Assembly (NCBI GenBank): GCA_024226555.1
Contig: JAAELO010000762.1
Coordinates: 25,531 to 89,530 of the forward strand
Direction of reading: 5' to 3'
Length of the DNA stretch: 64,000 nucleotides
Source of the DNA: Desulfobacterales bacterium
GTDB lineage: Bacteria; Desulfobacterota; Desulfobacteria; Desulfobacterales; JAAELO01
Below are positions 14,746 through 41,443 of the stretch, piece by piece (position 1 is the stretch's first letter; each line of letters opens with the position of its first letter). Both the position numbers and the translations under genes were made by a program. The notes beneath the pieces are model-generated. The model had not been told where the DNA came from. It did no database searches and saw nothing but the letters and a program-made list of their open reading frames with translations.

Positions 14746-14875
14746 GGGAATCTCTAATAATTAGAATTTTGATTGAAATACAAGGCATGAGAAAAAATAA
14801 CGAATCGGTTTTACAACAGTTCTTTTTTTGAAATAACGCTGTAGTTCGATCAAAAGGCAGTTATTAGAGATTCCC
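14746..14875. repeat. Family B inverted repeat element, long copy
   Basis: 130 bases bounded by perfect inverted ends GGGAATCTCTAATAA and TTATTAGAGATTCCC. The interior includes GAAATACAAGGC and CTGTAGTTCGATCAAAAGGC, which recur in reverse orientation near 57.1 and 31.1 kb. A T-run follows on the plus strand, so it may terminate sppA. Best-preserved copy in the window and a good reference. Confidence 0.85.
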
Positions 14876-14999: not shown

Positions 15000-15203
15000 C
15001 AACACAAAAAATGGTCCAACCTAAATGCCTTACAATTTGAATAATTGGATCATGAAACTTTATGTGTGGTTATAAAAGTTCTGGAAGAAAATAGTTCTCA
15101 TCATGCTTGTTATAAAATCAGGGAAAATGAATGAATTGTCAGAAATGTACTCAATTCCAATTGTTTATGGTAAACCTACACAAGAAATATCAAGGATTAA
15201 GAG

Positions 15204-15401
15204 ATGAAATTAATATGCTACTGCTTTAATTACACATATGAAGATATAAAAAAGGATCTGCTTGAAAATGGCAGATCCACGATTATGGAGATGATAATAA
15301 AGGAGAAACAGTTTGGGGGCTGTTCCTGCCATACAAAAAATCCCAGCGGTAAATGATGCCTCCATGATGTCCGCAAGGTTGTGGATTCAATGAGACAATA
15401 G
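15204..15401 (+). CDS. Candidate selenoprotein: small BFD/CopZ-N-like [2Fe-2S] protein with in-frame UGA
   Basis: Not in the ORF track. ATG at 15204 is preceded by AAGGATTAAGAG. The frame runs 50 codons to TGA at 15354-15356 and then continues open to TAG at 15399-15401, giving 65 residues with UGA at codon 51. The part before UGA has the BFD-like pattern CYCFNYTYEDIKKDLLENG, then GGCSCHTKNPSGK. In relatives as I remember them this is followed by a Cys-Cys pair and a DVRKVV-type helix; here the codons are TGA-TGC then LHDVRKVVDSMRQ. So UGA stands exactly at the first Cys of the pair. A SECIS-like hairpin follows at the right spacing. Selenocysteine insertion is inferred; the alternative is a 50-residue protein with a normal stop and decayed tail. 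Confidence 0.65.
15365..15389 (+). promoter_or_regulatory. SECIS-like hairpin downstream of the in-frame UGA
   Basis: Five pairs (UCCGC with GUGGA, one G-U) close a six-base loop AAGGUU; a further G-U pair, then a bulged U and three more pairs (UGA with UCA) extend it. The loop begins 19 bases after the UGA. In E. coli fdhF the loop AGGUCU begins 18 bases after UGA and the stem has a bulged U. This close geometry supports selenocysteine recoding. The fold was done by eye. Confidence 0.6.
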
Positions 15402-36983: not shown

Positions 36984-37994
36984 CTAACAAATCCTAGGAA
37001 GCTGTTCGCCTGTTAGCATGTCTATTATTCTCCTGCCTCCGATCAATGTTTCAAGAAAAACCCTGCCCGGATTCTCCTCAACAACCTCACCAATAACACA
37101 GGCATCTTTTCCAAACTCACTTTTTCTAATGGACTCTAAAACCTTGTCACAATCCTCTTCCGCAACAAAGCAAAGAAGTTTCCCTTCATTGGCAACATAA
37201 AGTGGATCAAAACCAAGAAGCTCGCAGATCGCTTTAACAGAATCTTTTACAGGAAGCTTGTTTTCATAAATCAAAATACCTTTGTCAGATTGTCCGGCAA
37301 TCTCATTTAGAGTTGTTCCAACGCCGCCTCTGGTTGGATCTCTTAAAACATGAACATTAGAACTTATCTCAAGCATATCTGAAATCATATGATTTAGTGG
37401 TGCTGAATCTGTGACTATATCTGTGTCAAAATCCATGCCTTCACGTTTTGCAAGGACAGCCATTCCATGGTCTGCTATTGTTCCGCTAACGATAATTTTA
37501 TCGCCAACCCTTGCGTTCTGACCATTGATATTAAGATTATTATCCACAACACCAATGCCTGAAGTATTAATGAATATTTTATCGCAGGCTCCCTTTGAAA
37601 CAACTTTTGTATCTCCTGTTACGATCTGAATACCAGCTTTTTTAGCTGCTTCACCCATGGATTTTATTATTATTTCCAGATCTTCAAAAGGAAAACCCTC
37701 TTCCATGATTATACCAACGCTAAGATAAAGCGGCTTTGCTCCGCACATGGAGACATCATTTATTGTCCCATTGACTGCAAGTTCGCCAATATTTCCACCT
37801 GGGAAAAATATAGGATCGATTACATAGGAATCTGTGGAAAAGGATAGCTTTTTTCCATCTATTTCAAAAACAGCGCTGTCATTTAGTGCTGCAAGCATTG
37901 GGTTATCAAATGCCGGTAGGATAATATCTGAGATCATCATGTTTGATCTTTTTCCACCACTGCCATGATCCAAAAGTACGTTCTTGTCTTTCAT
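36984..37994 (-). CDS. hypE: Hydrogenase maturation protein HypE
   Basis: 336 residues. Starts with the LDHGSGGKRSNMMISDII motif and has an AIR-synthase fold (TDSYVIDPIFFPGGNIGELAVNGTINDVSM, DPTRGGVGTTLNEIA). It ends LPRIC with the essential C-terminal Cys that is carbamoylated by HypF and dehydrated to a thiocyanate to make CN ligands for the NiFe centre. Last gene of the maturation operon. A 104-base gap with a family D repeat separates it from hypD. Followed by a family A repeat. Confidence 0.95.
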   Translation of the reverse strand: MKDKNVLLDHGSGGKRSNMMISDIILPAFDNPMLAALNDSAVFEIDGKKLSFSTDSYVIDPIFFPGGNIGELAVNGTINDVSMCGAKPLYLSVGIIMEEGFPFEDLEIIIKSMGEAAKKAGIQIVTGDTKVVSKGACDKIFINTSGIGVVDNNLNINGQNARVGDKIIVSGTIADHGMAVLAKREGMDFDTDIVTDSAPLNHMISDMLEISSNVHVLRDPTRGGVGTTLNEIAGQSDKGILIYENKLPVKDSVKAICELLGFDPLYVANEGKLLCFVAEEDCDKVLESIRKSEFGKDACVIGEVVEENPGRVFLETLIGGRRIIDMLTGEQLPRIC

Positions 37995-38030
37995 TTGTTT
38001 AGTTCCTTTATTAAATCCACTCTTTAGATT

Positions 38031-38098
38031 GTTTTCACAAATAGAAATTTTGCTTTATCTGATACAGAAATTAAGCAAAAGAGCATTTGTGACACAAC
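38031..38098. repeat. Family D repeat at the hypD stop
   Basis: Ends CACAAATAG and CATTTGTGACACAAC; the right arm directly abuts the TAG of hypD. Shares arms with the 15-bp perfect copy at 19.6 kb. It separates hypD from hypE within one operon. Confidence 0.7.
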
Positions 38099-39187
38099 CT
38101 ACACATGATATTTGTAAAATGCTGCACAGGTTCCTTCATTTGAAACCATACATGGTCCAATTGGATTAATTGGAGTGCACACTTTTTTGAACAGTTTACA
38201 ATCAGGTGGTGACATGAGCCCTGTTAATATAGCTCCACAAGCACACCCTTTTGGTTCATCAACCTCTTTTACATCTAAACCAAGAGCTATTGAAGCATCG
38301 AACTCTTTGTATTTATCGTTTATTGATAGACCACTCTCTGGGATTGGTCCAATTCCTCTCCAGATAGCTGTGGATGTTTCAAAAACATCATACATCGCAT
38401 TTTTCGCTATAACGTTCCCCTCTGCGCTAACAGCTCTTTGATATGCATTTTCAAGAGTTCCTTTCCCCTCTTCAAACTGCTGAATCATCATTAGCATTGC
38501 ATGGAGAATATCAACTGGTTCAAAACCACCAACAACTGTTGGTATTTTGTATTTTTCCACAAAGGGAACATATTCATCTGTCCCTGAAATAAGAAGAACG
38601 TGGCCCGGAAGAAGAAATCCATCAATCTTTACGCCTTCTGTGTTCATTAATACTTCAAGAGCTGGCGGGACAAGCTTGTGAGCGGTATAAACAAAAAAGT
38701 TTTTCAGCCCCATCTTGCTGGCAGCCTGAATTGAAGCTGCTATTGTTGGCGCTGTTGTTTCAAAGCCAACTCCTAGAAAAACCACTTTCTTATCAGGATT
38801 TTCCTGTGCAATTTTAATGGAATCCAAAGCGGAGTATACAATTCTTACATCTGCTCCATTTGCTCTCTCAAGCATTAGTGTTGAATCTCCACCAGGAACC
38901 TTCATCAGGTCGCCGAAAAGAGTTACAATTGTATTTTCCATCCTTGCAATATCGATAAATGCACAGATATCTTTTTGTGCTGTAACACAAACAGGACAAC
39001 CTGGCCCTGAGATCAAAGAGACCGTATCCGGCAGCACATCTCTGATTCCATTTTTAAAAATGGACATAGTATGTGTTCCGCAAACCTCCATGACTTTGAA
39101 ATCTTTTGTACTTGTTTCATGGATTCTTTCAATTAGCTTCTTAGCTATTTCAGAATCTCTGTATTCCTCTACATGTTTTAGTGCCAT
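38099..39187 (-). CDS. hypD: Hydrogenase maturation protein HypD
   Basis: 362 residues. The conserved motifs are all visible: EVCGTHTMSIFKNGIRDVLP near the start, ISGPGCPVC, GFETTAPTIAASI, FLLPGHVLLISGTDEY and a C-terminal cysteine group (CACGAILTGLMSPPDCKLF). HypD carries a [4Fe-4S] cluster and with HypC assembles the Fe(CN)2CO unit. It follows hypF by 21 bases and precedes hypE. Its stop touches a family D repeat. Confidence 0.95.
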   Translation of the reverse strand: MALKHVEEYRDSEIAKKLIERIHETSTKDFKVMEVCGTHTMSIFKNGIRDVLPDTVSLISGPGCPVCVTAQKDICAFIDIARMENTIVTLFGDLMKVPGGDSTLMLERANGADVRIVYSALDSIKIAQENPDKKVVFLGVGFETTAPTIAASIQAASKMGLKNFFVYTAHKLVPPALEVLMNTEGVKIDGFLLPGHVLLISGTDEYVPFVEKYKIPTVVGGFEPVDILHAMLMMIQQFEEGKGTLENAYQRAVSAEGNVIAKNAMYDVFETSTAIWRGIGPIPESGLSINDKYKEFDASIALGLDVKEVDEPKGCACGAILTGLMSPPDCKLFKKVCTPINPIGPCMVSNEGTCAAFYKYHV

Positions 39188-39208
39188 GAATAATAATCCC
39201 CAAATTAT

Positions 39209-41443
39209 TTATATTGAAGCCGCCGCTATCATAGCTTGTCCCAGTGATAACCCGCCATCATTTGCCGGAACTATATTCTGGCAATATACTTTAAATCCGT
39301 TTTCATCTAATTTTGACAAAAAACCCTCAAGCAGTATAGAGTTTTGAAAAACTCCTCCACTTAAGGCAACACTGTTTAATTTAGTATCGCTCCTTATCTC
39401 ACAACAGATCTCTGTAAAAAGATTAATAATTGTGTTGTGAAATTTTGAGCTTATAACAGAAACATCTGTTTTTTCCAGAAGATCTTTTACAACTGACTCT
39501 ATTATTTCTTTATGTGAGATTTCGTACAGATTTGTTTTTTTATAAGAGTAGTTGTAGCTCTCTGTTACTCCCTCTTTGGCAATCATCTCAAGCTCTATTC
39601 CTGCTTGTCCCTCAAAGAAGACTTTATTTCTAACACCAGTTATAGATGCTATACCATCAAAGAGCCTACCAAGGCTGGATGTGAGGGGACAATTCAATTT
39701 TTTTTTGATCATAGCTGTTAGAAAATCAAATGATTTTTGTTCAGAACTTTTAATAAAAGGTATATCGAGATTTTTGTAGTCAGAGCCAAAAGTTGAAAAC
39801 AGGTAACTAAGACCCATTCTGTAGGGTTCCTTAATAGCAAAACCACTTCCTGGCATTGGAGCATAGGATAGGTGAGCAGCCCTTTCAAATCCTTTGAAAT
39901 CTGATATTAAAACCTCTCCACCCCAGATATTACCATCAGACCCAAGACCTGTTCCATCAAAAGCCAAGCCAATAACCGGTTCATCTATTTTGTTCTCAGC
40001 CATACAACTTGCAATATGGGCATGGTGATGTTGTACCTCTATTATTTTTGTATCCAGCTCTTTAGCATACATTGTACTCATGTAATCGGGGTGAAGATCA
40101 CAAGCTACTATTTCAGGCTCCACATCTAAAATACGTTTCATATGTGAAACTGTAAGTTGTAAAAACTCAAGGGATTCATAGTTTTCAAGATCACCAATAT
40201 GCTGACTTAAAAAAGCCCTGTCCTCTTTAGTTACACAGATTGTATTTTTTAATCCGCCACCAACAGCAAGCACTGATGGAATATTATCCTTTAAAAAAAC
40301 GGGAATTGGCACATATCCTCTTGATCTTCTTATAAAAGATGTGGCATTTTTTGTTTTTTTTACAATGGAGTCATCAGACCTAAGATATATGTCTCTATCA
40401 TGGATTAGAAAATAATCTGCAATATCTGAAATTGAATCAAAGGCGTCATCATTACTAATGGAGATGGGTTCATCACTCCTGTTTCCACTTGTCATAACGA
40501 GTGCTTCTATCTCATTTAAAATAAGATAGTGAAGCGGAGTATATGGTAGCATTGTACCAAAATATCTGTTCCTTGGAGAAACATCTTCTGAAATCTTATT
40601 TCCTTCCCTTTTTTTGAGAAGAACAATAGGTCTTTTATTTGATTCTAAAAGTTTCTTTTCATCTGTGTTTAAGTGAGCAAACGATTCAACCTTTTCTGAA
40701 TCAAATGCCATCAGAGCAAAGGGTTTTTCTTCACGCAGTTTTCTTTGCCGAAGAGTTTTAACAGCCTTATCGTTTAAAGCATCACAGGCAAGATGGAAAC
40801 CACCTAAACCTTTAATTGCTATTATATAACCCTTCTTTAGCAGATTTATAGTCTCTTCAACCGGATCTTTAACATCTATAATCTCGTTATTATTGTTCCA
40901 GAGAGAAACCTTTGGACCACACACTGAACATGCATTGGGTTGAGCATGAAATCTTCTGTTCTTTGGGTCATCGTACTCTTTTTGACATTCATCGCACATT
41001 TTAAAGTGCTTCATAGATGTCTTTGGCCTGTCATAGGGAATATCATCAATTATTGTGTATCTTGGGCCACAATTTGTGCAATTTAGAAATGGATAGTGGT
41101 ATCTTCTGTCTGCTTTATCGAAAAGTTCAGAAAGGCAATCTTTACATACAGATACATCCGGAGAAATAAGCGCATTGGTGCTTTCCTCTTTTTCACTTTG
41201 AACTATTGAAAATTCAGAAAAGTGTTCAAGCTCAATTGTTGTAACAGAGATATCTGTAATTATGGAAAGTTCCGGGTGGTTACTTGAAATATCTTTACAA
41301 AAACTATCTAATGTAGCTCTTAAACCAGTAACCCTTATGACAACTCCAGAGGAGTTGTTTAGAACAGTACCTTTAAGTTTAAATTTATCAGCAAGTTGAT
41401 AAATAAAAGGTCTGAATCCAACACCCTGAACAATCCCTTTCAC
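39209..41443 (-). CDS. hypF: Carbamoyltransferase HypF
   Basis: 744 residues from the GTG at 41443. The domains run in order: acylphosphatase (GIVQGVGFRPF), two zinc fingers (CKDC...CTNCGPRYT and CDEC...CSVCGP), a YrdC-like domain (KGLGGFHLACDA, MTSGNRSDEP) and the O-carbamoyltransferase with HHHAHIASCMAE and FDGTGLGSDG. It makes the CN donor from carbamoyl phosphate and loads HypE. In-frame codons before the GTG reach back to ATC at 41476 with no ATG, so the true start may be non-AUG; see findings. It follows hypC by 39 bases, with GGAG inside the hypC end. Confidence 0.95.
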   Translation of the reverse strand: MKGIVQGVGFRPFIYQLADKFKLKGTVLNNSSGVVIRVTGLRATLDSFCKDISSNHPELSIITDISVTTIELEHFSEFSIVQSEKEESTNALISPDVSVCKDCLSELFDKADRRYHYPFLNCTNCGPRYTIIDDIPYDRPKTSMKHFKMCDECQKEYDDPKNRRFHAQPNACSVCGPKVSLWNNNNEIIDVKDPVEETINLLKKGYIIAIKGLGGFHLACDALNDKAVKTLRQRKLREEKPFALMAFDSEKVESFAHLNTDEKKLLESNKRPIVLLKKREGNKISEDVSPRNRYFGTMLPYTPLHYLILNEIEALVMTSGNRSDEPISISNDDAFDSISDIADYFLIHDRDIYLRSDDSIVKKTKNATSFIRRSRGYVPIPVFLKDNIPSVLAVGGGLKNTICVTKEDRAFLSQHIGDLENYESLEFLQLTVSHMKRILDVEPEIVACDLHPDYMSTMYAKELDTKIIEVQHHHAHIASCMAENKIDEPVIGLAFDGTGLGSDGNIWGGEVLISDFKGFERAAHLSYAPMPGSGFAIKEPYRMGLSYLFSTFGSDYKNLDIPFIKSSEQKSFDFLTAMIKKKLNCPLTSSLGRLFDGIASITGVRNKVFFEGQAGIELEMIAKEGVTESYNYSYKKTNLYEISHKEIIESVVKDLLEKTDVSVISSKFHNTIINLFTEICCEIRSDTKLNSVALSGGVFQNSILLEGFLSKLDENGFKVYCQNIVPANDGGLSLGQAMIAAASI

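Follow-up and report, generated by a model that had tools for sequence, protein, structure and literature searches.

Selenocysteine (Sec) at the position considered here has already been catalogued for the CopZ-type family. Two forms of a "(2Fe-2S)-binding protein (copper chaperone CopZ family)" have been listed, form 1 with the motif GxUC and the entry cd10141 (Zhang et al.; PMC9312934, PMC13188914) and form 2 with the motif CU and Csac_0668 (PMC9312934, PMC13188914). Form 1 is given there as a single accession, WP_245779778.1, without analysis (PMC9312934, PMC13188914). The original prediction for the present locus had raised, without answering it, the question of earlier reports of Sec in this family, and these two catalogues settle it in the affirmative. 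CopZ is absent from the main text of the 2008 GOS paper cited by the reviews, and the family is unnamed in the main text of several selenoproteome papers. Our literature search found no analysis of the family's SECIS, distribution or gene neighbourhood.

The window, which is the whole 64,000-nucleotide stretch of Desulfobacterales DNA that was analysed, contains a gene (Table 1) whose product reads MKLICYCF...GGCSCHTKNPSGK-U-CLHDVRKVVDSMRQ-stop. In reading order the gene consists of MKLICYCFNYTYEDIKKDLLENGRSTIMEMIIKEKQFGGCSCHTKNPSGK, then TGA, then CLHDVRKVVDSMRQ, and then the terminator TAG at 15399-15401. The open frame, the TGA at codon 51, the TGC that follows it and the TAG end were all as originally predicted. 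A 26-codon ORF that overlaps the gene's start codon showed no conservation and was dismissed. Directly upstream of the gene, at 14746-14875, is a near-perfect palindrome of 130 bp, with a 155-base stretch that folds to -45 kcal/mol; this element, a MITE- or REP-like repeat, has 49 matches genome-wide, of which about 40 are nearly full-length and at least 86% identical. Elsewhere in the window, hydrogenase maturation genes span 36984-41443 on the minus strand and include HypF (39209-41443) and an AIR-synthase-type protein, probably HypE (36984-37994).

Table 1. Features of the selenoprotein locus, in coordinates of the window
Feature	Position	Strand	Basis or remark
Shine-Dalgarno-like AAGGA, 7 nt 5' of ATG	15192..15196	+	direct sequence reading
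Predicted selenoprotein gene, 65 residues, single-domain BFD/CopZ-N-like [2Fe-2S]	15204..15401	+	sequence, family matches, kept relatives, model pLDDT 94.8
CxC motif Cys5/Cys7, predicted cluster ligands	15216..15224	+	invariant in both alignments (A1, A2)
CxC motif Cys40/Cys42; Cys42 a predicted ligand	15321..15329	+	Sec-form and Sec+Cys-form alignments
UGA read as Sec, residue 51	15354..15356	+	TGA conservation; Cys in divergent relatives
Sec51-Cys52 pair, counterpart of the CopZ-type Cys-Cys pair	15354..15359	+	alignments, A. fulgidus chain 2hu9
bSECIS hairpin GUCCGCA-AGGU-UGUGGAU	15369..15386	+	stem 15369-15375/15380-15386, loop 15376-15379; conserved, covarying

The proposed assignment to a BFD/CopZ-N-like domain was supported by three sub-threshold family matches. 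The read-through protein matched Fer2_BFD (Pfam) with 20.5 bits, below the gathering threshold of 26, with positions 1-48 of the 50 in the profile covered. It matched NF047645 (NCBIfam) with 56 bits (4.5e-15; cut-off 100) over model positions 86-137 of 138 only, and NF045877 (NCBIfam) with 33 bits (7e-8; cut-off 190) over model positions 98-158 of 161. NF047645 was also matched by 19/19 aligned members, and both NCBIfam models possess an extra N-terminal part that is missing from the 65-residue protein. None of the curated Pfam and NCBIfam models scanned reached its cut-off with the stand-alone Sec form, and annotation is therefore likely to end this form at the UGA or to miss the gene. An AlphaFold2 model built from a 19-member alignment had a mean pLDDT of 94.8, and the relevant-fold matches found by Foldseek in the PDB were to Bfd only and were weak (TM 0.55, probability 0.15). 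Relatives of the gene were not found in the viral contigs searched, and an Rfam scan of its surroundings gave no match above gathering.

Evidence for the reading of the UGA came from its conservation. The order-level sample comprised 58 genomes, the window's own and 57 others from its order; 22 matched and one TGA was present in 20 of these; in the aligned relatives the TGA occupied a single column, flanked by NPxGx and CLxDVRxVV. In the phylum sample, 68 of 395 genomes matched, 62 of them with exactly one TGA and 6 with none, which makes the stand-alone Sec form common, at about one-sixth of the sampled phylum genomes. A DNA pattern containing the TGA matched at least 114 stretches of the GTDB genome contigs, and the taxa among the matches listed were nearly all Desulfobacterota-type bacteria, with a few Nitrospirota. 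The cultured species Desulfothermus okinawensis and Desulfovibrio cuneatus were among those hit by this pattern. Overall, the motif around the TGA was found at no fewer than 141 distinct loci, and the TGA was kept across families and orders together with the tail and the hairpin. Conservation of the tail after the TGA had also been anticipated and was observed, with Cys52 and Asp55 invariant and Arg57, Val59 and Val60 near-invariant.

Homologues of both kinds relevant to the original prediction, with TGA and with Cys at residue 51, were found. The residue-51 column was Cys in the more divergent relatives and in the TGA-free matches, as in NPQGSCCLGNVRQV (L189) and NPKGSCCLAEIKK (L191), and plasmid-borne homologues likewise carried Cys at the Sec position. 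This amounts to a clear Sec/Cys exchange at the CopZ-type Cys-Cys pair. The nearest Cys relatives were two-domain CopZ-type proteins, and every intact stand-alone protein seen with a CLxDVRxVV tail was a Sec form. Cys40 and Cys42 were both invariant among the Sec forms and, of these two, Cys42 alone when the Cys forms were added; the residues invariant across Sec and Cys forms together were Cys5, Cys7, Cys42, Cys/Sec51 and Cys52.

Several individual relatives were also noted. In the TGA-free relative at L039:1501-1605 the family sequence ends after KNMREKR, and this resembles a degraded copy. A TGA-containing relative (L201, G375:C12) has Gly in place of Cys7 (CDGF) and is possibly decaying. 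A second BFD-like subfamily carries Sec at the same place (NPRGRUCSREI; L195 in G427 and L196 in G155) and has Cys relatives (L192 and L194). The genome of the window has its own two-domain Cys form, a CopZ-N part plus the present domain, with NPTGHCC (L002, genome contig C495:45972-46133).

The hairpin UCCGC/GUGGA of the original prediction was present with a longer stem, the 5 bp extending to 7 bp around the loop AGGU with a core MFE of -8.9 kcal/mol, and the bulged U was located at 15368. The spacing between UGA and loop, predicted as 19 bases, is 19 nt when the closing A-U pair is counted and 18 nt otherwise. The constraints quoted for bSECIS elements are a loop of 3-9 nt, a stem of 4-16 bp, a G within the first two loop positions, a spacing of 16-37 nt and an MFE of -7.5 or lower (PMC13188914). 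The present hairpin lies within them (loop of 4 nt, AGGU; stem of 7 bp; 19 nt; -8.9 kcal/mol). Across the window, a bSECIS-like hairpin accompanied 1.1% of the TGA triplets, and from this background rate together with the conservation of TGA, tail and hairpin it was deduced that the hairpin is not a chance occurrence.

Because the TGA-containing DNA pattern fixes some of the stem bases, the SECIS statistics were redone on a set of 43 sequences retrieved solely through protein similarity, and because the hairpin overlaps the codons for DVRKVVD, these were compared with synonymous recodings based on local codon usage. An MFE of -7.5 kcal/mol or lower was obtained for 88% of the 43 sequences versus 5.8% of the recodings, and all seven pairs were present in 56% versus 1.3%. 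The Arg57 codon was CGC in 37/37 Arg cases, and the third base of codon 60 was G in 43/43 sequences. Alignment columns 18 and 31 covaried, with C-G in 34 sequences, U-A in 6, U-G in 2 and C-A in none, and the pairing was destroyed in a control in which the partner strand was slid. The hairpin was absent from 8/9 Cys forms, in which the same stretch was unfolded (0 to -1.8 kcal/mol), and the ninth (L190) had a different fold with 2/7 pairs. Codon choice in the hairpin stretch is dominated by the SECIS.

These data bear directly on two ways of dispensing with Sec. If the UGA were an ordinary stop, as translation table 11 has it, the product would be of 50 residues and the tail a leftover or a coincidence. 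This is extremely unlikely, since the tail and the UGA are kept at at least 141 loci, the Cys forms read on through the position and the SECIS is conserved at synonymous sites. A Cys codon (TGC or TGT) could also have become TGA through sequencing error or pseudogene decay, for which a single base change is enough. The same TGA is, however, present in independent assemblies and in many families, and the SECIS is confined to TGA forms, so that this origin is scarcely credible. An ordinary stop, a pseudogene and a sequencing error were therefore ruled out by the conservation of TGA and tail, the Cys forms and the SECIS.

The selenium genes named for checking in the original prediction were sought in the genome of the window (7.69 Mb, 904 contigs), where selA, selB, selD and tRNA-Sec were found. 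SelA scored 614 bits, SelD 359 bits, SelB 335 bits, over its cut-off, and tRNA-Sec 73 bits versus a gathering value of 47. The SelD gene has an in-frame TGA of its own (genome contig C507:40250-41173; L184), and SelD is probably itself a selenoprotein. All 62 TGA genomes of the phylum sample fell within the SelA-positive set and G435, a genome with a Cys form, fell outside it; since SelA was matched in 365/395 genomes, this co-occurrence is weak support. The proposal that the UGA encodes Sec is accordingly supported by TGA conservation, Cys exchange, SECIS and machinery, and the sequence comparisons strongly support 15204-15401 as a real, conserved selenoprotein gene. We consider it highly probable that the protein is a genuine selenoprotein with UGA51 decoded via the SECIS, a CopZ-N/BFD [2Fe-2S] domain and, as its proposed role, the handling of soft metals.

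In the proposed mechanism, SelB and tRNA-Sec would decode UGA51 as Sec at the SECIS hairpin, which would sit among the codons for the C-terminal helix. The stand-alone CopZ-N/BFD-type domain would then hold a predicted [2Fe-2S] cluster through Cys5, Cys7, Cys42 and one of Sec51 and Cys52. As five chalcogens are invariant and four ligands are needed per [2Fe-2S] cluster, either Sec51 or Cys52 should be free, and Sec51 may be the free partner rather than a predicted cluster ligand. The Sec-Cys pair would bind or reduce a metal(loid), the cluster would supply or sense electrons, and the protein would support a transporter or reductase.

The converse arrangement is a non-exclusive variant of this explanation, in which Sec51 itself ligates the [2Fe-2S] cluster as a natural selenolate-ligated centre and Cys52 is free. 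One residue of the U-C pair should be a ligand, given five invariant chalcogens for four places, and in the catalogued form 2 it is the other member of the pair that is Sec (CU), so that either can be Sec. Sec is, however, usually reactive and seldom structural, and a ligating Sec51 is regarded as possible but on balance improbable. We also considered a widespread, Sec-only, stand-alone selenolate iron-sulfur metallochaperone in which Sec either ligates the [2Fe-2S] cluster or captures and reduces Hg or As beside it, and which present annotation models would have overlooked; we found this proposal unlikely.

The proposed mechanism draws its metal(loid) component from the gene neighbourhood. 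The window copy itself has an SppA peptidase gene upstream and a PLD-like protein gene downstream on the other strand, with no metal-resistance gene adjoining. In a motif screen of 98 loci, arsenic or mercury genes were found within 3 kb at 23, and none were found by the same screen at the remaining 75. Among neighbouring ORFs, 34/549 were arsenic/mercury ORFs versus 0/275 of controls that came mainly from one genome, that of the window. The recurrent functional-looking neighbours within 3 kb of the 98 loci were the regulators ArsR/SmtB and MerR; SaoE-like and Cu/Zn-efflux-like permeases, ACR3 and MerT for transport; and an ArsC-like reductase, an ArsE-like thioredoxin, MerA, an ArsM-like methyltransferase and ArsG. 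One family member (L168) has a MerT gene 57 bp downstream. In the Cys branch, CopZ-N, a BFD-like domain (CC), MerT and an HMA domain are joined in one protein on a Planctomycetes plasmid (L202:3189-4424), for which the label "mercuric reductase" is wrong as judged from the sequence, and in Halorussus the gene is near merA, between merB and a dihydrolipoyl-dehydrogenase-like gene.

The arsenic/mercury neighbourhood suggests soft-metal handling. In its most likely role, the protein would handle soft metal(loid)s in the cytosol or serve in their redox delivery, examples being Hg(II), As(III) and Cu(I); we put this forward tentatively, as an almost evenly balanced assignment. Since no metal-resistance gene neighbours the window copy, its metal role is one that we can only infer, and given the 75/98 loci without an arsenic/mercury neighbour, metal handling may represent just one use. 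A real selenoprotein could instead serve in general electron transfer or in thiol/peroxide redox as a Bfd-type ferredoxin, with the arsenic/mercury neighbours co-using a redox partner. This would suit the majority of copies, including that of the window, which are without an arsenic/mercury neighbour. It would also suit the further matches, which were NifU, NirB and Bfd domains; these serve as electron-transfer or scaffold modules. A redox function is thought, according to a passage of one of the catalogues, to hold for most catalogued prokaryotic selenoproteins (PMC9312934). The enrichment of arsenic/mercury neighbours and the MerT/MerA associations in both Sec and Cys forms argue against a purely general role, which was deemed plausible yet somewhat doubtful.

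Compared with known systems, a close likeness of the predicted selenoprotein is to form 1, in which Sec is likewise first in the pair of a CopZ-like BFD-type domain; it was matched by motif, GKUC being an exact fit to GxUC. The best family match, NF047645 (CopZ_Nterm_CC, putative iron-sulfur cluster-binding metallochaperone), has Cys-Cys at the Sec-Cys position but differs in being longer, in its N-terminal domain and in having Cys for Sec. NF045877 (CopZ_Nterm_CU, Csac_0668 family 2Fe-2S cluster-binding (seleno)protein) has the same domain as the 65-residue protein but is longer, with an N-terminal part, and has Sec second in the pair (CU) rather than first. In the N-terminal part of Archaeoglobus fulgidus CopZ (2hu9), CYC...C...NPSGRCC aligns with CYC...C...NPSGKUC of the present protein, although the sequence match is weak (E 0.27) and 2hu9 differs in its additional N-terminal domain and in having Cys for Sec. 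The name of NF045683 (MerT/CopZ fusion-like heavy metal transport selenoprotein) reflects the same partner domains, while the model itself gave no match to the 65-residue protein at E up to 10. The predicted selenoprotein adds a new, stand-alone protein to a [2Fe-2S] family for which Sec was already catalogued, and as a short soluble protein it is suited to asking what selenium does beside a predicted [2Fe-2S] cluster. What is new relative to the catalogued forms is the stand-alone single-domain form, with Sec in every intact member seen, the SECIS-dominated codon choice and the recurrent arsenic/mercury neighbourhood (23/98 loci).
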